Positions 307-15,480 of a DNA stretch of 64,000 nt are shown piece after piece. The stretch comes from Halomonas sp. (GTDB taxonomy: Bacteria; Pseudomonadota; Gammaproteobacteria; Pseudomonadales; Halomonadaceae), in the NCBI RefSeq assembly GCF_017983445.1, contig NZ_JAGOBJ010000009.1:124001-188000 (forward strand). The letters are read 5' to 3'. The first letter of the stretch is position 1. Each line of letters begins with the position of its first letter. Under the pieces are notes generated by a model. It saw only the letters and a list, made by a program, of their open reading frames with translations, made no database searches and was not told where the DNA came from. Both the position numbers and the translations under genes were made by a program.

Positions 307-3300
307 CTATTGCTGCTTATAAGTTACAGGGCTACCTCGACGGGAGAAGGTATAGATCAAATCCACCGCCTGATTAGTACCCGATACAGCCTGTACATAT
401 AGATTACGCCATAGCGTATAACGTAACGTTAGTTCGGCAATTGGCGAGAAAATTCCCACACCATAGCTAATACGCAGATCATCGGATAGCTGACCACTCA
501 AGGCCACCTGACTGTCATCCCCAGTACCGGTCGTATCCAGTGCCAGATCATCGATACCAAACGCTTCACCAATGGAGCCGACAGCTCCCCCCGTGCGGCC
601 CAGGGACATACCAATCAACGCTGTTGTCAGAGCACTGTCCATACCGCCACTAGAATCTGATGCCCGGCCTCTCAACACATAGGAGAGAGCCTGGTTTTCG
701 GGCATGGATGGCTCTGAGAAAATCGTCACGTTAGGCTCTTCAGCACTGCCCGTTACGCGTAGTCCGGCAATAACATCGTCTTCTGTCACATCCGGATTAC
801 GGATTGCTTCGAAGTCAAGTGAAGGCAGCCCAGGTGGTCCGCTAAACAGTAGCTGACCGCGGCGGATCAACAGATCCTGACCAAAGGCTTGGAAACGACC
901 ATCGACGAGATTTACTTCGCCAAATAGCTGAAGTCCACCGCTGTCTTGACGAATTTCCAGCGTGCCGCCTAAGCCTGATTCAAGGCCATAGGCGGAAATC
1001 AGCATGTCTCTGCCCAGCGTGAGGGTAATCAGAACGTCTAGCTCCATACCTGTTTCAGCCAATTCATCGGCGGCACTAGGTCCGCCATTTTCAGCTGCGC
1101 GCCGCACCTCTTCTTCAGCTTCGCGATCTTCACGCTCGGTAATAATAATTTCATCCGAGCTGGGTTCAATCGTAGAGGCAGAGCTTGAGCCAATCTCCAA
1201 CCGTGCCCAAGGTAAATCCACATTACCCCGTACCTGCAATCGCTCTGGCGTTATACGTACCCGAATATCTGGCGCTGCCTCCAGGCGGCCAAACTGGGGC
1301 AATACCAACAGTAATGGCTCTTGCGTAGCGTTAAGGTCTATGCCTATTCGCCAGTCGTCCGCGCCGGGCCAATAGGCGTCCCCGGTAATGTTCAGTCGGC
1401 CACGCTCGGCCGCCACGAAACCATTGATATCGCCCTGCTCACCATCAAACGAGAGATTTATTTCGCCATCGCGTACATCAACAGGAATATCGGGGCCGCG
1501 AACTCGCAAGCCACGCAACGCCAATGTACCCTGCAAATCTGGTTGGCTGGTGGTGCCGCCAATCTGCACTCGGCCGTTTAATTCACCTTCAAGGCTATCC
1601 ATGCCCACGACCATAGGACGATAAGGAGCTAAGGCGATATTATTAGCCAGCAACTCGCCATCCAATGTACCTCGCCCAAGCGGATCGTTGAGAGATAGAT
1701 CAAGTCTCAAATCACCAGCTTCAGAAAACGACAGCACTATGTTGATATCCGCCTGTGTCTGGTTCGCCTGCAGGTTTGCATCCAGATTAATGACCGGTAG
1801 CTGAACGGGTTGCCCGTAATCGTTGATTGCGGTAATCGCAAGCTCGCTAAGCACTTGAACGTCGGCTTGCCAGCGTGCGCCGCCTTGGCGCCAATCAACC
1901 ACCATATCCGCCGTGGTATCGCCCTCGAACGACCACTCTTCAGGTAAGAACGGTTCGAGCATCTCCATAGGTACTTCGCGTACGGTTAATACCGCACGCC
2001 CCTGGTCGGGGGAAGCATTGATCGGTTCCTGAGAACAGACCAGTCCACCCTCTTCGCGGCGTAAACAGAAAGGCGACAAGCGTGCCTGTCCGTTAGCCAG
2101 GTTGTAACTCAGATCAATCGGCGCTTCCAGGCGGATATTGCCCGCTTCGGAGTCGATTTCCAGGGGAGTAAGCCGCCCTTGATACTGCTGGCGCTGTTGG
2201 TCGAAACGACCGTCCAGAGCTAATAGCGCACGTTGCAGTGGGCTATCGGGTTCGCCCTGCACGCGCAGTTCAAGGCGGTGCTGAGAAAGGCGCCCCGTTA
2301 AATTCACATCCGCGGTTGAAAGGCGCTGGCCGCCAGCGAATATTTGCTGCAAACCCAATTGAACGTTGAGCCGTGGATCGTCAAGACCCTGTACCGTTGC
2401 ATCAAGCTCCAACCGCTCTACCCGGTTATCCGCAAAGCGCAGATCGCGCCCTGATAGGTCGGCAAGAATCTCGGGCTGCTCAAAGCTACCCGTGGCTTTT
2501 ACACTCCCAGTAAGAGTTCCTGCCAGTTCAGGAGAAAGAGTACCCAGCTCACGAAGCGCAATATCGGCGTTTAACGACATGGCTTGCTGGCTTATCTGGC
2601 CTGAAGCCTGTAACCGGTTATTGCCCTGAGTGAACAACAGTTCATGGATATCGACCTCCATATTACTGTTGGCATCCAAGGCTGCCTGAAGCGTTAAGGG
2701 GTAATCACGCAGCTGACCATTGATGTCGATATTAGCGATGCTCACCGACCAAAGCTCGCCTAACTGGCGGACGCTTACATCAATGTCCCCCGTCAGGCTG
2801 CCATTCATTTGATCAACAAAGTGCGCTGGGTCGAACTGGTCTAAGCGAATGCGCGTATCAATCGTCAGCGGATCTGACCAATTAATACGCCCTTCGCTGC
2901 GCAAGCTGCTTTGTTCTACCTGAAGCGCGAGAGGAGCCCAGCGGAAATGACTAATATCGCCATCGCCATCGAGCGCTACCTGAGTGGGCGGCAATCCCGG
3001 CCCTTGAGCCTGTAGCGTCACTTCGGCGCGGTAGGCATCCAGACTGCCCTCGACCGTTAGGTCGAGGGCTTCAGCGACATAGGGCACACTGCTTTCATCT
3101 GCCTCTTGAGCTTCGTCTATGAGAGGCCATTGCAACCGTTCACTTTGCAAGCGTGCCTGGAAAGGAAGGTCTGGCGTTGACCAATCGATATGCCCTTCAC
3201 TTCGCAGCGTATTTTCACCTACTTGAAGGACTAAAGGAGTCCAGCGGAAATGACTAAAGTCTCCATCACCGTTGAGCGTTAATTGAGTAGGTGGTAACTC

Positions 3301-4623
3301 AGGCCCCTGTGCTTGAAGGCTAACGTCGGCACGGTAAGCCTCCAGGCTGCCTTCAACGGTTAAATCTACCGCCTCAACCACATAGGGTTGCGCGGGACTT
3401 GCACCCTCCACTGTTTGCTCATCCACCAGCGGCCACTGCAGCCGCTCGCTTTGCAAGCGTACTTGGAAAGGCAGATCGGGCGCCAAAACGTCTGCCTCAA
3501 GATTGAGAGACGCGGCCACTATGCCGGCTGCCGTCAGCTCGGCCTGCAGATTGTCCAGCGAGCCGGAAAGCTCAAGCACAAGTTCTTCACCATTTAGCTC
3601 AGGAAACAGCTCAGGCAAAAACAACACGGCTTCCAAGCGGGCTTCGAGTGGGTAGCTTCCGCTCAAGTCTGCGTTTGCGACAAGGTTTGCCTGCACATCG
3701 GCGGTGGTTACCTTAAACGAGGAAATTTCTACCTGGCTTTCCTGAGTATTCAGCCCTATCTGCAAACGTTCAATACGATATTCAAAGGCGCCCGTCAGAT
3801 TGATATCAGTGGCCGTCAGGTCGCTCACTTCGATATCGACCGGCAGCGCGATTTCAGGCAGTTCGAGACGCTCACGGGCCGCTAACTGCTCCTCAAGCGA
3901 TACTGATGGCGTTGTTTCATCGCGAGGCTGTGTCAGCAGAATGGCACCATCGATGCCTTCTGCGAGCAGTGGGGTCTGTACTTCGTGAGTAAGTTGAACG
4001 CCTGGTGATGGGGGCAGATAAACCGTCAGCTGTTCAAGACGACTGGGTGCAAAGGCCACCTGGCTATTTTCAGCCGTGGCTGACGTTTCAAAGGTTGCCA
4101 AGTTGATGCGCGTGCCATCAGCCAGTTGAACCCTTACGTCATTCAATAGAAGAGAGCGAAGCTCAATCGGAAATGGCAAATGCAGTCTGAAAGGGTCGCC
4201 ATCCTTGGGTGGCTCTTCTTCAGCGGCGCTTGCTCCAAGTCGAATATCCGCTCCATTAACATGTAGCGTATCCAGACAAAGACGCCTGGAAAGGACACAG
4301 TCATCTGACCAGGCCAATTCCAGATCATCTATGGCGACATAGATATTGCCGAGGTCAAGACGAAAGCCCCGAAGCTCAAACTCATCGAGCAGCCCACCCT
4401 CCTGATGTTCGAACGTAAAATAGCCGCGCTGCTCGCCCTGGGAAAATAAAAATCCCGTGCCCCAGGGTGACAAAGCCACGCCCAGTAAAAGCGCAACTAA
4501 ACCTAATAGCCATAAGGGCAACAAAATAATCAGACGTACCAAACTCCACACCAGCAGCCTTGTGCGTTGTTGCGATGAATACGGCTGGCGCGTCGTGGTC
4601 GCGGAAGACTTAACCTGGGACAA
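307..4623 (-). CDS. tamB: TamB, inner-membrane AsmA-like translocation/assembly protein
   Basis: TamB (1438 aa) is the inner-membrane-anchored partner of TamA. It spans the periplasm as a long beta-taco/groove implicated in phospholipid transport and outer-membrane protein assembly. A transmembrane helix lies at about residues 28-52, followed by very long beta-rich repetitive sequence and the conserved C-terminal TamB (DUF490) domain, which ends in a barrel-partner-like segment ([16 protein letters not shown]). The start is TTG at 4623; an AGGAG six bases upstream overlaps the tamA stop and I see no better ATG, so the two genes are probably translationally coupled. Residues about 383-584 contain two adjacent, clearly related copies of roughly 100 aa. 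The family is certain; the start is likely. Confidence 0.95.
2870..3475 (-). repeat. Tandem ~303-bp duplication inside tamB
   Basis: Two adjacent in-frame units (about 3173-3475 and 2870-3172) encode near-identical ~101-residue blocks. Both start with [16 protein letters not shown] and both contain [23 protein letters not shown] and DGD.SHFRW before the segment LRSEG. Similarity is visible in DNA as well as protein, so the duplication is fairly recent. It would lengthen the periplasmic groove by one module. Confidence 0.85.
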
Positions 4624-4632
4624 AGCGTGCTC

Positions 4633-6483
4633 CTAGAATTCCGGGCCAATGGAGAAATGCAGACGAAAAGCATCTTCATGATCGAAGGGATGCGCTACGT
4701 CCAGGCGAATAGGCCCCACGGGCGATATCCAGCGGACGCCTACCCCGGCTCCAGTTTTTAAATCGTTGGGGCCCCAGTTATCAAAAGCGTCACCCGTATC
4801 GATGAACGTGGCCCCCCACCAGTTTTCTCTAACACGCCGCTGATACTCAAGGCTTGAGGTGATCATCTGTTGGCCGCCGCGTAAGCGCCCTTCAGCATTA
4901 CGCGGAGACAGGCTTTCGTAGGAGTAACCGCGTACGCTGCGATCCCCGCCTGCAAAGAAACGCAGTGAAGGTGGCAGTTTGGAAAAATCATCGGTTTCAA
5001 TTGCACCCATGCTTAAACGGGCAGAGAAGCGATTGTCGTCATTGATGGTGCGTATCCACTCAGTATCACCGGTTAAGCGCGTAAACTTGGCGTCCGAGCC
5101 CCAGATTGTGTCTGAATACTCAATGGAGAGCTGCTGACGGTCGCCCCAGAGCGGAAAACGCTGCGGACGAGTTCGCGTGCGCGACCATTGAATGCCCGGG
5201 TAGAAGAGCCATACCTCATCAGCCTCCCCGCCTTGGGTAAAGTCCTCATAGGTGGTCCGGAAATACAGCGATTGGACCCAGTCGTTTTCAAACTGCCAGC
5301 GGCGGGCAATTTCCACTGAGCCTTCCAGGGATTGGGTGTCGCTATCGTCGATATTACGAACCCCGTACTGCAACCGATAACTATCGCGCAGTGGATCTTC
5401 TAGCGGGATGTTGTATACCCCGGTGAAACGCTGCTCTGGCGCAGAGAGATAAAGATCATGATTAAGGCTATGGCCTAAACTGTTGATCCACGGCTGATGC
5501 CAGCTAAAGCGCAGGCGAGGGCCTACATCGGTCGCATAGCCGATACCCACTTCAAATTGATGACGATCGGCAGGTTCGACGCTTACATCAATGGGTAGCG
5601 TAGTATTGTCACGCTTGTTGATATTCAACACGCTCAATAGAGCGGCGCTGCTGATCCGTGGACGCTGGGGTTGAGAGGCGGTTGCCTCGCTAAACCATGG
5701 ATCACCGCCCCCTGGAGGGGTAATAGTAAGTTCCTGAGCCGTTTCCAAACGTGGCCGTACGGTAACGGACTTAAACCAACCGGTTTCTCCAAGGCGCTGA
5801 TTATAAGTGGCCAAGGATTCTGCCAGGTAAGGATCATTCTCTTCAAAAGTTTGCATCTGCTGCAAACGGTCAGGTTCGATATGACTACCGGTAATATGTA
5901 CCTTGCCGAAACGATAACGTGGCCCGCTATCGAAATCCATATACAGCCGGACACTTTGCAGATACGGACGTACTTCCATACGTCGGTCAGTAAAGCCCGA
6001 GTCAAAATAACCGCGTTCGATGGCAAGCCCCGCAAATTGATTACGTAAACGATCCCACGGGGCATGACGTAACGGGTCACCTTCGCTTAAGGGGAAATTA
6101 TCCAATGCTTGTTGAAAAGGCGGGTCGTCTTTAGCATCGCCTTCGATATTGACCGAAAGCACTTCGATTTCGACACGCGGGCCAGGCTCAATCGTTAGCC
6201 TGATGGGCGGCGTAAGTTCAATGCTAATATCCGGCTCGTAGTAACCAAAAACCCGCATGGCCTCCTGAGCACGGCTGCGTATCTCGGCTTCCAGGCGTAC
6301 ATCGGTATATTGTTCGGCGTCAATACTCTCTAGATATGCACTGACATTCGCCTCAACGTCCCCATCCACGCCACTGATATCAGCAGTGAGCGCCCACGCG
6401 GGTGTCATGGACGCCGTGCATAAGGGTAATGCGATAAAACAGGCCACCTGAGTGGCAGAACGCCATCGCCGTTGTCTTCCCAT
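4633..6483 (-). CDS. tamA: TamA, Omp85-family outer-membrane protein
   Basis: TamA (616 aa) is the outer-membrane Omp85 component that works with TamB. Visible parts are a signal peptide ending near TPAWA (residues 1-31), POTRA-type repeats over about residues 35-275 (for example RYRFGKVHITGSHIE), and a 16-strand-type beta-barrel to the end. The barrel contains the conserved Omp85 lid-loop motif in FFAGGDRSVRGYSYE, and the chain ends in the aromatic residue expected for BAM-dependent insertion (FSIGPEF). Its length fits the family (about 580-620 aa). It lies 9 bp upstream of tamB and 52 bp downstream of the coiled-coil protein gene, on the same strand. Confidence 0.95.
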   Translation of the reverse strand: MGRQRRWRSATQVACFIALPLCTASMTPAWALTADISGVDGDVEANVSAYLESIDAEQYTDVRLEAEIRSRAQEAMRVFGYYEPDISIELTPPIRLTIEPGPRVEIEVLSVNIEGDAKDDPPFQQALDNFPLSEGDPLRHAPWDRLRNQFAGLAIERGYFDSGFTDRRMEVRPYLQSVRLYMDFDSGPRYRFGKVHITGSHIEPDRLQQMQTFEENDPYLAESLATYNQRLGETGWFKSVTVRPRLETAQELTITPPGGGDPWFSEATASQPQRPRISSAALLSVLNINKRDNTTLPIDVSVEPADRHQFEVGIGYATDVGPRLRFSWHQPWINSLGHSLNHDLYLSAPEQRFTGVYNIPLEDPLRDSYRLQYGVRNIDDSDTQSLEGSVEIARRWQFENDWVQSLYFRTTYEDFTQGGEADEVWLFYPGIQWSRTRTRPQRFPLWGDRQQLSIEYSDTIWGSDAKFTRLTGDTEWIRTINDDNRFSARLSMGAIETDDFSKLPPSLRFFAGGDRSVRGYSYESLSPRNAEGRLRGGQQMITSSLEYQRRVRENWWGATFIDTGDAFDNWGPNDLKTGAGVGVRWISPVGPIRLDVAHPFDHEDAFRLHFSIGPEF

Positions 6484-6535: not shown

Positions 6536-7366
6536 TTACCGAAGCATTTCAATTTGAGCACTAAATGCTAATTGAGCTTGGCGAATTTGGCGTATATCGC
6601 TCTCAAGGGCCGCTAGACGTTGGCTCCACTGCTGTTCAAACGCCGCCATTTCTTCATTATTAACCGAGGCTGACTCTAACTGTAGCGTATCTAGCTCAGT
6701 TTCTAGCATATTAAAGCGCTCATTGATCGCTTCATTCTGGGCTGCCAGCTGCTCGTCTAACGTTTGGCTCAACTGGCTGAACTGTTCTTCTATTGAGGTT
6801 AGCTGTTGCGCGGTGGTCCGTTCCAGATAATTGACTTCTTCAACAAGGTTTTGTCGCCCCGACGTGCCCGCCTGCTCGAGAGCATCCAACGAGTTGCTCA
6901 ATGCCGCAAGTTGGCTATCGCGGAGCGCCGCCTGTTCCTGATATTGACTGAGGTACTGTGAAAACGTTGCTAGCGTTTCGCTTGAAGCCTGATCTTCATT
7001 ATCAGTAAGCACGCCATAGAGTTCTTCACGGGTATTCGTCAAGGCAATGGAGAGCTGCTCCTGCTCTTGGAAAAGCGTCGTCATCTGCGCTTGTACAAAG
7101 GTTATCGTATCTTGTACATCGGTGTCACCCGACTCCAGTCGAGCATGAACATTGGACACCTCTCCACTTACCCGATGGAGTTCGGAAAGAAGACGCTCAC
7201 GTTCCAACCAAAGCCCTACCGAGGCTGCGGCGAGCAAAGTAAACAGCAGGAAGATCCCAAGCCACAAAGGCCACACGGCTGGGCCTTTGCGGTAGCGTAG
7301 ATGCTGAACCGTCAGGCTCTGATCCACATCGGGAACAATTCGCTGAGAAGGCGTCGAATTGGGCAT
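6536..7366 (-). CDS. Membrane-anchored coiled-coil protein of unknown function
   Basis: I do not recognise a named family. The 276-aa protein has a short basic cytoplasmic N-terminus, one transmembrane helix at about residues 30-54, and a long Gln/Glu-rich heptad-like region (about 55-270) that should form a periplasmic coiled coil. Residues such as Leu and Ala recur at heptad spacing and cysteine is absent. The layout resembles HemX-like or cell-division scaffold proteins, but I see no diagnostic motif. It starts 9 bp after the stop of the dehydrogenase-like gene and ends 52 bp before tamA, so all four probably share a transcript. The gene is real; its role is unknown and may be structural in the envelope. 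Confidence 0.8.
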   Translation of the reverse strand: MPNSTPSQRIVPDVDQSLTVQHLRYRKGPAVWPLWLGIFLLFTLLAAASVGLWLERERLLSELHRVSGEVSNVHARLESGDTDVQDTITFVQAQMTTLFQEQEQLSIALTNTREELYGVLTDNEDQASSETLATFSQYLSQYQEQAALRDSQLAALSNSLDALEQAGTSGRQNLVEEVNYLERTTAQQLTSIEEQFSQLSQTLDEQLAAQNEAINERFNMLETELDTLQLESASVNNEEMAAFEQQWSQRLAALESDIRQIRQAQLAFSAQIEMLR

Positions 7367-7375
7367 GGCGTTTCC

Positions 7376-8668
7376 TCAAAAAGACGTAGGGTCGGCGCGA
7401 CGACCAATACCACGGTACTTTAACCCGCAACTGGCAACAAATGTAGGGTCGTAAATATTTCGCCCGTCTAACACTAACTTGGCACTGAGTGATGTTGCCA
7501 ACCGATGCCAGTCTGGATTCCAGTAAGGCTTCCACTCGGTCACCAGCATCAACGCATCAGCGCCCTCGCATGCCTCATAAGGATCCTGATCGAACGTTTG
7601 CAGATCTTCTCGATAGCCGACTTCCTGATGCAGAGCCGCAGTCGCTGCCGGGTCATGGAGCTTTACCTTTACGCCCTGTGCCCAGAGTGCTTCTAAAAGT
7701 GTCAGTACAGGGGCGTGATCAATACGTGCCGTTCCGGGTTTAAATGCCGCCCCCCAAATAGCCACCGTCTTACCTTCGAGCTGGCCTTCAAAGTGGTTCC
7801 AAAGCTTGCGAAAGAGGGTCTCTTTCTTCTGCTCGTTGATATCCATGACTTGTTCAAGCAAAGCAGAATATCGGCCACTTTTGGATTGGACGTCCGCTAA
7901 ACGCATTAAATCGCGCGAGAAATTGGGGCCCCCAAAGCCACATCCGGGATATAAATATTCAAAGCCGATGCGCGTATCGGCACCCATGCCCTGACGTACA
8001 TGTTCGACATCAACACCTAATGTGTCTGCCAAGCCGGCGATTTCGTTCATATAGCTGATACGTGTGGCCAACATGCCATTAATGGCTAGTTTAGTAAGTT
8101 CGGCTGCCCTTCGCGGCATGGGCTGGAAAACTTCCTGGCGCCGGTTAAAAGCGCGCAATAGTTCACGCACCACATGTTCGCCCTGCGCATCGTCACAGCC
8201 AAGCAGCCAACGTGTTGGCCGAGTAAAGGAAGCCCAGGCACGGCCTTCTTCCAGCGTGTCAGGCAAGGCAACACTGCTATGCTGATCTTGCATCAAATCA
8301 TGCAAGCGCTCCGTTTCGCCTACCGGGAATGTGGAGTTATTGACTAACACGGCGCCTTGCTGAACATTGAGCCCAGGCTGCTGTAGTAGCGTAGTGGCTG
8401 CATTACGCTGACTTGGGGAAAGCGCAAGCCAGATAACATCGGCAGGAGACGCTTGCGCTATATTATCAATAAGTTCCAGCGTGCCATCGGCTAAACCTTG
8501 CTTAATATGCGGCATCAATTCAGGTTCACGACGCAGCCAGTCCACCTGAGAAAGAACCGCCCAAGGGGCGCTTTCATGGGGGAGCCACTGAACCTGGTGG
8601 CCCACCCAGGCTAACGCAGCAGCAGCGGTCACAGCACTTAACTCACTGCCATAAAGTAATACTCGCAT
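7376..8668 (-). CDS. UDP-glucose/nucleotide-sugar dehydrogenase-like protein, probably catalytically inactive
   Basis: The 430-aa protein has the full three-domain layout of UDP-glucose 6-dehydrogenases, but key residues differ. The family's N-terminal GxGxxG is replaced by GSELSA (residues 7-12). The nucleophilic cysteine of GGSCFPKD is asparagine in GGPNFSRD (Asn249); a cysteine occurs at 243 instead. Lys193 and Asn197 (KLAIN) and Asp253, normally in the active site, are kept, as are NSTFPVG and a DTRIG segment. A C-terminal UDP-binding-like domain includes FKPGTARIDHAP. Either it is a pseudoenzyme or it carries out different chemistry. It heads the tamAB cluster and is divergent from ubiG. 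The family is confident; the activity is inferred to be lost. Confidence 0.85.
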   Translation of the reverse strand: MRVLLYGSELSAVTAAAALAWVGHQVQWLPHESAPWAVLSQVDWLRREPELMPHIKQGLADGTLELIDNIAQASPADVIWLALSPSQRNAATTLLQQPGLNVQQGAVLVNNSTFPVGETERLHDLMQDQHSSVALPDTLEEGRAWASFTRPTRWLLGCDDAQGEHVVRELLRAFNRRQEVFQPMPRRAAELTKLAINGMLATRISYMNEIAGLADTLGVDVEHVRQGMGADTRIGFEYLYPGCGFGGPNFSRDLMRLADVQSKSGRYSALLEQVMDINEQKKETLFRKLWNHFEGQLEGKTVAIWGAAFKPGTARIDHAPVLTLLEALWAQGVKVKLHDPAATAALHQEVGYREDLQTFDQDPYEACEGADALMLVTEWKPYWNPDWHRLATSLSAKLVLDGRNIYDPTFVASCGLKYRGIGRRADPTSF

Positions 8669-8786
8669 TTACCAGACTCCTTGCGCGACGGAAAAGCGAG
8701 AAAGTATCGCCATGAAATTCATACAATGGTCCTTTTCATGCGTTCTGACCCAGGAGTGGTTAGAATGCCCATAATACTGAACGATT

Positions 8787-8801
8787 GAGTGGATACCACT
8801 C
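8787..8801. promoter_or_regulatory. 15-bp palindrome in the ubiG/dehydrogenase-like intergenic region
   Basis: A perfect 6-bp inverted repeat GAGTGG-ATA-CCACTC lies between the two divergent genes, 76 bp before the ubiG start. A three-base spacer is too tight for a stable RNA hairpin, so a protein-binding site is more plausible. No known consensus is matched. Confidence 0.3.
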
Positions 8802-8876
8802 ACCACTTGACGTCAACACCCAGGCTGGATGGAAAAAGTAACCATTCATTGCTGATTGACTATGGGAGCCAGACAC

Positions 8877-12570: not shown

Positions 12571-13863
12571 TCAGTTTAAAAACGGCGACCATGCAGGATC
12601 GCGCACATCGCCTTGTGCTGCAGGAAGCCGGAATGACGACCGCCCATCGGCAGAAACGGCACTCAGCACCCCGTTGTTACCCTGTTGGGTAGCGAAGATT
12701 ACCATGGTCCCGTTCGGCGCAACACTAGGAGATTCATCTCTTGTTGAATCACTTAGTACCACAAGCCGTCCACCCTCTAAATCCTGGCGTGCCACTTGGT
12801 ACCCACGGCTGGAGCGGTGAACCAGGAATATCTGATCGCCATCCGGAGAATAGCGTGCCCGGGCGTTGTAGTTACCGGTAAACGTCACACGTTTTGTCTC
12901 GCCGCTGCCTAGCGAATACTGGTAAATCTGCGGGCCACCACTGCGATCAGAGGTGAAGAGCAGACTACGACCATCGGGCGACCAAGCGGGCTCGGTATCG
13001 ATGCTGTTGCTATTGGTGAGACGTTCCACCGAACGATTACCAATATCCATGATGTAAATTTCAGGCTGACCATCTTTGGATAAGGACATCGCAATACGAC
13101 GACCATCTGGCGACCAGGTTGGCGCGCCGTTAATGCCATCAAACGACGTTGCCATTACACGTTGGCCAGTAGCGACATCCTGAATATAAATTGCCGGGCG
13201 CTCAGTTTCAAAGGAAACATAGGCAAGTTTGCGACCGTCCGGCGACCAGGAAGGTGACATGATAGGCTGATCAGAGGTCAAGACCTGCTGGCTATTACGA
13301 CCATCTGCATCGGCTACGTAGAGGCCGAACTGCATATTGTCGCCAAGCCCTTGAGCCGTCACGTAGGCGATGCTGGTGGAGAAGGCGCCGCGAATATCGG
13401 TAATTGCCTCAAAAATCTGGTCGCTGATGTAGTGAGCCGCACCGCGCAGGTCATTGGCATTTGCCGTAACGGTTTCACCAATCATGCGGCGCTGGCCGCT
13501 GATATCCATCAGGTCAAACTGAAGCTGATAGCCACTGCCCGTCTGCTCCGCACGCCCTACCACTAGATAGCGTACATCAAGCGAACGCCAGGTACCGAAT
13601 TCAACGTCATCGGCTTGGCTGGGCTTTTCAAACATGGCGCTACGCTCTAGCGGCTCGAACAGACCGCTACGCTCTAGATCGTCCTGAATAATCTGAGCGA
13701 TATCTTCAGACATCCCCTCATTGCCTGCAAAAGGGACTACGCCAATGGGCAAGGCTTGATCGCTGCCCCGTGTAATTTCAATGGTCAAGTTTGCGTTTGC
13801 ATTTGCGATACTGCTAATTAACAGCAGTGCGCAGAATAACCACACTTTGCTCAGTATTTGCAT
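12571..13863 (-). CDS. tolB: TolB, periplasmic beta-propeller of the Tol-Pal system
   Basis: TolB (430 aa) binds Pal and TolA in the periplasm. It has a signal peptide (1-24, ending IANANA), an N-terminal anticodon-binding-like domain with VVPFAGNEG, and a six-bladed propeller built from repeated WSPDGR.LAY-type units (blades from about residue 195 onward). Its ATG overlaps the last base of the tolA stop, which indicates translational coupling. Length and repeat number fit the family. Confidence 0.97.
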
Positions 13864-15053
13864 CAGCGAACATCCCCCGGGGTAAATCGCAGATTAATTT
13901 GACGTAAGTTTCGTTGCTGATCCGCAGGCAAATCTCTCAATTCACCAAACGGTGCAGCCTGTTCAACAGCTTGTATCGCAGACCTATCAAAAGCACTATC
14001 ACCACTTGATGTCGCAATCGACGCTGCAAGCAGCTCTCCCGACGGGCCCAAACGTATTTGCAGCGTAGCACTCAATGAATCGCTTGCTCCAGGTGGTATC
14101 AACCATGCCTGTTCGACGGCTCGACGCACAATATTGATGAAGCTATTGGCAGCCTGTTGTGCTTGTTGCGCATTTGCCGCGGCCTCTGCTTCACCGGCTA
14201 GCTGACGCTGCATGGCGGCTTCTGCCGCTTCCGCTGCCTGGCGTTGACGCTCAGCTTCTTCACGTGCGCGCCGCTCTTCGGCTTCCTTCTCGCGTTGAGC
14301 TTCGGCTTCACGCTCACGCTGTGCTTCAGCTTCACGTTGACGCGCGGCTTCTGCTTCGGCGGCAGCTTTGGCCTCTGCTTCGGCGGCAGCTTTGGCTTCT
14401 GCTTCAGCGGCAGCTTTGGCTTCTGCTTCGGCGGCGGCTTTGGCTTCTGCTTCGGCGGCAGCTTTGGCTTCTGCTTCGGCGGCAGCTTGGGCTTCTGCTT
14501 CGGCGGCAGCTTGGGCTTCTGCTTCGGCGGCAGCTTGGGCTTCTGCTTCAGCGGCGGCTTGCGCTTCTGCCTGTTCACGAGCCTGCGCTTGTGCCGCTTG
14601 CTCCTGAGCTAAGCGTTCAGCTTCCTCAGCGCGTCGCTGAGCTTCGGCTTCGGCCGCCTCTTGCGCTTGCTCTAATGCTTGTGCCTGAGCTTCGGCTTCA
14701 CGGCGAGCGGCTTCTTCAGCCGCTTGCTGTTCGGCTGCCTGATTATCCGGCTCTGGCTCAGCGGCGTCGGGCTCGCTTACGCTAGGCTCGGCCGTGGGCT
14801 CCGTTGCGTTATTCATCGCCGCTTGCTGCTCGGTTGCTTGCTGAGCCTGATCGGTAAACGTTTCCGTACTGACCAACGTCGCTTGCACTATGGATGATGA
14901 GTCCGGTTCTGCCGTTGAGCTGGGCCAATTAATGAAACTAAAAACAATAATAGCCAAATGCACGCCAACGGCGAGTACGGTTGGTAACGTATAGCCAACA
15001 TCCTGCGGGTCACGCGACGTATCTGCGGTCACTTGCGTCTTGCCCTTACCCAT
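13863..15053 (-). CDS. tolA: TolA, energy-transducing envelope protein with repeat-rich stalk
   Basis: TolA connects the TolQR motor to Pal/TolB. The 396-aa protein has one N-terminal transmembrane helix (about 23-42), a very long Ala/Glu/Gln-rich helical domain II, and a small C-terminal domain III (about 305-396) with the TonB-like segment [14 protein letters not shown]. Domain II contains nine copies of an 8-residue unit (AEAEAxAA) encoded by a 24-bp DNA repeat. I chose ATG 15053, an 8-bp overlap with tolR; ATG 15089, also in frame, would add 12 residues. Neither has a strong ribosome-binding site. Confidence 0.95.
14359..14574 (-). repeat. 24-bp tandem repeat (nine units) in tolA domain II
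   Basis: Nine consecutive 24-bp units of the type GCGGCAGCTTTGGCTTCTGC plus TTCG (plus-strand sense) run from 14359 to 14574 with only a few substitutions. Each encodes eight residues alternating between AEAEAKAA and AEAEAQAA. Because 24 is a multiple of three, slippage changes stalk length without breaking the frame. Confidence 0.92.
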
Positions 15054-15480
15054 CTTGCGGCGGCTCTGAAAGCAATCCCACATTTTCAACGCCGGAACGC
15101 TGAAGCGTGCTCATCAGCAAAACGATCTGGCCATACTGTACGTTACGGTCACCGCGCACCATGACAGGCGTGCCTGGGCGACGTTGTAAAATCGCCCCGA
15201 CACGTTCTGACATCTGCTCAAGCGATACCGAGGTCGAGTCTTCGCCCAAGGTGATGAAATAACCGCCTTCGCGATCAACCGAGATAATGATGGGATCACT
15301 ATCCTGAGTATCAATCGGCTGTGACGATACTTGTGGAAGGTCGACCTGAACGCCTTGTGTCAGCATAGGGGCGGTAATCATGAAAATGACCAGCAGCACC
15401 AACATAACGTCGATAAAGGGGACGACGTTAATCTCCCCCATTGGTTTATTCTTGCCGCTACGGTTAAAAGGACCTTGCAT
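15046..15480 (-). CDS. tolR: TolR, proton-channel component of the Tol motor
   Basis: TolR (144 aa) has one transmembrane helix at about 19-40 carrying the essential proton-binding Asp in NVVPFIDVMLVLLVIFM. A periplasmic domain of the ExbD/TolR family follows (VDLPQVSSQP, then RPGTPVMVRGDRNVQYGQ). It works with TolQ as the stator that energises TolA. It lies 11 bp after tolQ and overlaps the start of tolA. Confidence 0.97.
   Translation of the reverse strand: MQGPFNRSGKNKPMGEINVVPFIDVMLVLLVIFMITAPMLTQGVQVDLPQVSSQPIDTQDSDPIIISVDREGGYFITLGEDSTSVSLEQMSERVGAILQRRPGTPVMVRGDRNVQYGQIVLLMSTLQRSGVENVGLLSEPPQDG

Follow-up and report, generated by a model that had tools for sequence, protein, structure and literature searches.

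The locus studied here raises the question of what a relative of UDP-glucose dehydrogenase (UGDH) might do in the cell when its catalytic cysteine is gone. Such a gene lies in the window, the whole stretch of 64,000 nucleotides from Halomonas sp. that was analyzed, at the head of a group of genes that includes tamA and tamB. A preliminary description had proposed a pseudoenzyme or nucleotide-sugar-binding protein, possibly a component of envelope assembly. To our knowledge, the means by which bacteria sense and adjust their UDP-glucose level are understood in only a few model organisms. The reading we favor, to which we assign a probability of about one half, is that the protein is a redox-dead pseudoenzyme that would bind a UDP-sugar and regulate the supply of UDP-glucose, where both the binding and the partner are predicted from sequence.

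The reading frame occupies the minus strand, which the preliminary description had left unstated; it starts with ATG and encodes a UGDH homologue, termed pseudo-UGDH below, and frame 1 of the plus strand across the same interval contains many stops. The genes in question are:

7376..8668, minus strand: pseudo-UGDH gene, 430 aa, TIGR03026 superfamily, redox-dead clade
6536..7366, minus strand: coiled-coil gene with one hydrophobic stretch (Kyte-Doolittle windows from residues 28-38 over 1.6)
4633..6483, minus strand: tamA (Omp85 5e-38, POTRA_TamA_1 2.1e-14)
307..4623, minus strand: tamB (TamB 3.8e-66)

Transcription proceeds on the minus strand from the UGD-like gene through the coiled coil (7366-6536) and TamA (6483-4633) to TamB (4623-307), with gaps of 9-52 bases, confirming the gene order first described. 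The divergent ubiG (TIGR01983) lies upstream. The genome is that of a Vreelandella/Halomonas relative, and the nearest locus, L006, is 98% identical.

Some further features of these genes were observed in passing. TamB (307-4623, minus strand) contains a tandem duplication in which residues 384-485 match the next ~102 at 71/102 positions; this is missing from the BLAST self-comparison listing, and by tblastn TamB spans ~300 bases less in L007, a near relative, than it does in L006. An open reading frame at 13863-15089 (minus strand) is TolA-like and contains many short, nearly identical AEAxA repeats in one long run; it was named by eye and by its position before tolB. The coiled-coil protein (6536..7366) gave no Pfam or NCBIfam match above cut-off, and its weak matches are to long coiled-coil models of defence systems. 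A link of pseudo-UGDH to phage defence was looked for and not found.

Pfam and NCBIfam assign pseudo-UGDH to the UDP-glucose/GDP-mannose dehydrogenase superfamily. The UGDH central domain (E 5.1e-28) and the UDP-binding domain (E 7.4e-24) are matched in Pfam, and the NAD domain scores 25.1 bits, below the cut-off of 27 (27.4 bits in the genome search). Taking Pfam, NCBIfam and alignments to solved entries together, the three domains are present in the order N-central-C, with the N domain weak. The best solved relatives are the UDP-glucose dehydrogenases 2y0c-e, followed by 3gg2. In the alignments with 2y0e, 2y0d, 2y0c and 3gg2, N249 faces the cysteine with no gap at that place, so that the Asn249 of GGPNFSRD pointed out earlier does stand in the position of the catalytic nucleophile. 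Chance or sequencing error behind the loss of the cysteine is ruled out, as Halomonadaceae loci of 61-98% identity also lack it. They carry Asn, Ser or His at this site, the Asn itself not being fixed, and the GxGxxG motif is absent from those with a readable N-terminus. Two loci, L058 and L060 (AP019416, AP019514), have broken frames in which the N-terminal motif is unreadable; pseudo-UGDH and several neighbors match there in pieces only, a picture that suggests sequencing errors rather than decay of the genes.

We compared the residues of 48 clade members with those of 28 UGDHs, having dropped L006, L007 and L059 as copies from a set of 51; equivalences to human UGDH rest on alignment. In the human enzyme Glu161, Glu165, Lys279, Phe338, Lys339, Arg346 and Arg442 have ligand-binding roles, and the NAD site follows the rules of the Rossmann fold. 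The key positions, all on the minus strand, are:

8633..8650: GSELSA, residues 7-12, replacing GxGYVG of the NAD site in the alignment
8090..8092: Lys193 (human UGDH Lys220 by alignment), 48/48
7970..7972: Arg233 (human Arg260), 48/48
7922..7924: codon of Asn249, which aligns with the catalytic Cys (human Cys276), in GGPNFSRD; Cys 0/48
7739..7741: Lys310 (human Lys339 by alignment), 48/48
7460..7462: Arg403 of DGRN, which we take to be human Arg442, 48/48

No clade member has the catalytic cysteine, its site being occupied by N, S, G, H, A, T or Y. The NAD site has lost residues too. The second Gly of GxGxxG is found in 1/48 members and the third in 4/48, and the Asp at the end of beta-2 in 0/48, being absent from the window's protein too. 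Equivalents of Lys279 and Arg346 are present in 5/48 and 3/48, respectively, and that of Glu161 in 3/48, with Asp in its place in 37. Positions that are invariant in the 28 UGDHs are kept at 11/43 in the N domain versus 34/61 in the rest (Fisher p 0.003). The UDP-sugar pocket, as identified by alignment, has fared differently: Lys193, Arg233, Lys310 and Arg403 are invariant, and Phe309 is kept in 45/48. Of the Lys220/Asn224/Asp280 trio (human numbering) the window's protein has all three, as Lys193, Asn197 and Asp253, just as the preliminary description had read them together with GSELSA; across the clade the Lys is in 48/48, the Asn in 24/48 and the Asp in 25/48. Thr113 is similarly half-kept (28/48), and Glu141 is found in 38/48. 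Since Asn197, Thr113 and Asp253 are retained in only about half of the members, the pocket around C6 of the sugar has changed and the ligand may differ.

The roles of human Thr131, Lys220, Asn224, Arg260, Cys276 and Asp280 are those given in the available part of PMC3184952, where Arg260 is described as reaching the glucose of the partner subunit. The pattern of residues is what would be expected of a protein that has given up NAD and the nucleophile and still needs the UDP-sugar pocket and the subunit contact. The suggestion of a pseudoenzyme with a retained nucleotide-sugar pocket is thus strengthened at the level of the alignment by the 48 members, in which the Cys and the beta-2 Asp are at 0/48, the second Gly is lost in 47/48 and the four pocket residues are complete.

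Could the protein nevertheless be an active UGDH, or an alcohol dehydrogenase that carries out one step and whose cofactor site is unusual? It scores 211.4 bits against the NCBIfam model TIGR03026, above the cut-off of 189.8 bits, and human UGDH with Ser for Cys still accumulated a covalent adduct, according to the part of PMC3184952 available. We consider this extremely unlikely, given that the NAD-site positions checked have been lost across the clade and that changing Cys to Ala abolished the in vivo effect of four UGDHs (PMC9927302, available text). Moreover the same genome holds an ordinary Ugd with its Cys. This gene, encoded on another contig and with the motif GGYCLPKD, is the one other UGDH-family gene of the genome, and its product is only 25% identical to pseudo-UGDH. 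That divergence makes a hetero-oligomer of the two proteins unlikely, as do two genomes that have no other UGDH central domain, G042 and G076 (the latter given as 95% complete). They are 2 of 22 genomes checked, which were picked mostly for a single match in an earlier search, and they suggest that pseudo-UGDH is not merely a subunit of Ugd.

The preliminary description had proposed an alignment with UGDHs and a tree. In a maximum-likelihood tree of 88 proteins, which omits the fragment L097 and the majority of the near copies among Halomonadaceae, 51 Cys-less proteins form one clade (100/100) beside 28 TuaD-type UGDHs, and 9 E. coli-type Ugds stand apart. The Cys was therefore lost, most simply, once. 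The clade resembles the TuaD-type enzymes (2y0c-e, 3gg2; TIGR03026) in its three-domain architecture, in near full-length alignment, in the UDP-binding domain and in the Lys/Arg/Lys/Arg of the pocket. It differs from them in that pseudo-UGDH lacks the Cys nucleophile, GxGxxG and the beta-2 Asp, with the Lys and Arg on the NAD side mostly lost in the clade, and in that the Cys-less proteins are a separate group of 51 members.

The Cys-less proteins form an old and well-preserved family. Relatives that show the same losses are found beyond the family, both within the order (families f37 and f43) and in other orders (G725/L184, G483, G532, G648 and G694); G725/L184 and the named Sulfurivirga locus L059 encode identical proteins. 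Genome counts rest on a profile threshold, with proteins read for part of the genomes. With profile A1 at E<=1e-44 the clade is found in 143/151 genomes of the family. Of the other eight, four (G044, G004, G026 and G067) hold clade members when the proteins are read, scoring weaker than 1e-44, so the threshold counts run low; three (G016, G037 and G018) matched only with Cys-bearing UGDHs, and G017 gave no match at 1e-20. In the order the profile threshold finds the clade in 32/293 genomes, from families f1, f37 and f43 only, and in the class in 8/369 at 2.1e-47 or better, counts that weigh against the generality of the explanation we prefer. The phylum draw gave 11/398 genomes, all 11 of the window's order. 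At a loose threshold the class-wide search mixed true UGDHs with the clade. The scores show a gap from E 2.1e-47 to 1.2e-43; of the matches read, the five non-halomonad ones on its stronger side (L157-L161) lack the Cys, and the 22 on its weaker side (L162-L183) all carry it.

The gene is not decaying. Its median dN/dS is 0.0385 in 36 near pairs, compared with 0.0275 for GalU (38 pairs), 0.052 for TamA (21) and 0.082 for the coiled coil (18); these pairs, of equal length and 0.5-15% divergent, replaced distant pairs that were mostly saturated, and they share species and so are not independent. For the window's pseudo-UGDH the values are 0.027 versus L006 and 0.021 versus L007. Judged by these ratios the gene is under purifying selection. 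A dN/dS near that of GalU, together with the invariance of Lys193, Arg233, Lys310 and Arg403 in the 48 members, might also be expected of an enzyme whose Lys193 and retained pocket serve a new reaction, one that acts on a UDP-sugar and needs no NAD. We think this quite unlikely, because the surroundings of the sugar C6 (Asn197, Asp253 and the Cys site) vary freely, unlike those of a working active site.

If the protein binds a UDP-sugar without turning it over, its neighbors may suggest where it acts. We compared 96 clade loci from four sets (55, 20, 17 of 20 and 4 of 9), dropping L148-L150 as true UGDHs and L184 as a copy of L059. Loci L191 and L192, in which galU lies before and tamA behind pseudo-UGDH, and the short loci L061-L090 stand outside the count. 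The numbers are of loci, not of independent events, many Vreelandella loci being near kin and the 55-locus set consisting mainly of close relatives. Neighbors were named by eye and the names then checked on representatives (GalU, Pgi, mutase, SodB, UvrB and UbiG); the representative GalU scores 348.6 bits against TIGR01099 (cut-off 326.8), and for galU from the genome of the window, which lacked the final residues as given, the score is 318.5 bits, just below that cut-off.

A same-strand tamA within 2.5 kb is found at 60/96 loci, all of them halomonad (47/47 Vreelandella-like and 13/14 other halomonad), and at 0/35 clade loci outside these two sets. The tree rows with tamA nearby sit in one 16-row clade (100/100), in which the flank of L085 is unread. 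The proposal that the protein is a component of TamA/TamB-dependent envelope assembly draws on the same-strand coiled coil and tamA found within 1.5 kb at 47/47 Vreelandella-like loci. It now seems very unlikely, given the 35 loci elsewhere without tamA and the opposite-strand sodB that separates galU-pseudoUGD from tamA at 12/14 other halomonad loci. The constancy of the tamA neighborhood in relatives, on which this part of the preliminary description depended, is lost outside the halomonads. Where it is recognized in halomonads the coiled-coil gene precedes tamA, even with sodB between it and pseudo-UGDH, so that the coiled-coil gene, rather than pseudo-UGDH, becomes the candidate TAM-linked gene.

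A same-strand GalU or Pgi gene within 1.5 kb, on the other hand, is present at 48/49 loci outside the Vreelandella-like set, the exception being L110, and at 24/47 Vreelandella-like loci, including the galU remnants of L017 and L054. In the control, 2/22 Cys-bearing UGDH loci have such a neighbor. The gaps to galU are often 2-20 bp, and the gene orders in other lineages are galU-pseudoUGD-uvrB, galU-pseudoUGD-pgi and galU-pgi-pseudoUGD. Clustering of the neighbors at 45 loci (42 clade, 3 true UGDH) gave galU and pgi as the most widely spread. A phosphohexomutase accompanies them in some, and across families no further gene was conspicuous as a partner. The conclusion that emerges is that the tamAB link is lineage-specific, and that galU and pgi are the older shared neighbors. 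The galU neighborhood could in part descend from an older galU-ugd pair of the kind seen at the 2/22 true UGDH loci.

The remaining 23/47 Vreelandella-like loci keep pseudo-UGDH with no galU nearby, so pairing with an adjoining GalU is not obligatory. The window shows the same absence, and apparent traces of a departed galU can be recognized in front of the gene:

8669..8722, minus strand: probable galU deletion scar, a 17-codon mini-ORF ending directly before the pseudo-UGDH start
8728..8805, minus strand: fossil leader of galU, 78 nt, 90% identical to the sequence that immediately precedes intact galU in L011

Short frames like the mini-ORF occur in several Vreelandella loci that lack galU, and this one (8669..8722) may now serve as a translation leader for pseudo-UGDH. 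Partial galU remnants at different stages of loss precede pseudo-UGDH in L014, L017 and L054. A promoter scan gave no more than chance. The only galU match at this length in the window's genome is on another contig (L189), beside pgi, and it clusters with the GalUs that other members of the family encode (g3/g5; 100/100), so that the resident galU seems to have been replaced. To judge from these remains, galU was apparently deleted in place in the window's lineage.

Within the genus the replacement looks like a process still under way. Of 41 genomes, the resident type (70-74% to the query) is present in 21 and the replacement (55-59%) in 24; five have both, and the one with neither is 88% complete. 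In the 15 genomes where the place of pseudo-UGDH is known the gene is always kept, adjoining galU in 9/9 with the resident type and unlinked in 6/6 with the replacement.

These replacements show that a partner need not be encoded alongside, and they leave room for a UDP-glucose sensor whose target is not GalU itself but another process (division, or the synthesis of osmolytes or of the envelope). In 6/6 genus genomes with the replacement galU only and both places known, pseudo-UGDH has remained at its site after the departure of galU, and the profile match in 143/151 family genomes points the same way. There is precedent in OpgH and UgtP, for which UDP-glucose is a nutrient signal and which are UDP-glucose-dependent regulators of division (PMC3723540, available text). 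Pseudo-UGDH would resemble them as a UDP-glucose-reading protein; they are glucosyltransferases, and the likeness is one of working only, with no homology claimed. We regard such a role as possible but doubtful, as the widest-spread neighbors across families are galU and pgi, with none other standing out at the 45 loci.

We therefore return to regulation of the UDP-glucose supply. At the level of sequence the comparisons establish a single clade that has lost its redox parts and keeps its pocket residues, under purifying selection and linked to galU and pgi in several families. The ancestor of pseudo-UGDH would be a UDP-glucose dehydrogenase of the TuaD type, with the change having happened, most simply, once; the NAD-site residues and the Cys nucleophile were lost, and the protein retained its domain architecture, its inter-subunit Arg and its UDP-sugar pocket residues. 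It would then bind UDP-glucose (or UDP-glucuronate) without turnover, and the bound or empty state would regulate UDP-glucose supply, most simply through contact with GalU (or GalU/Pgi); we infer the ligand from the kept pocket and the partner from the gene linkage. In the window's lineage galU would have gone from the locus, leaving the gene between the former galU leader and the coiled coil-tamAB genes.

A comparable arrangement has been described in enterobacteria, where GalF is an inactive GalU paralogue and a proposed regulator of GalU in E. coli; its function is also called controversial (PMC11796359, available text). The two proteins are unrelated, and are alike in being inactive relatives of a UDP-glucose enzyme tied to UDP-glucose synthesis. 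They differ in that the ancestor of pseudo-UGDH uses UDP-glucose and that of GalF makes it, and in that for pseudo-UGDH the regulation of GalU is suggested by gene linkage. Among the papers listed in a search by title and start of abstract, we found none on such a Cys-less clade, with subscription papers and preprints outside its scope. A ugd of H. malpeensis is named in PMC7814019, whose available text leaves unsaid which gene is meant, and the part of PMC13296553 available contains nothing on the pseudo-UGDH gene.

Taken further, the protein might be an NAD-free UDP-glucose receptor derived from UGDH that sets GalU/Pgi flux in several gammaproteobacterial families, an analogue of GalF of separate origin, re-wired in Vreelandella after the in-place loss of galU into an envelope-assembly operon, such that the expression or activity of TamAB follows UDP-glucose. 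We think this extended version unlikely as it stands.

The TIGR03026 model accepts pseudo-UGDH above its cut-off, and such genes are thus easily miscounted as supplying UDP-glucuronate when pathways are mapped in the halophiles used in biotechnology. The clade is a redox-dead relative of a textbook enzyme, maintained by strict selection beside genes that make UDP-glucose. It offers a ready target, with one gene, one predicted ligand and two candidate partners, and a natural comparison between strains with and without an adjoining galU.
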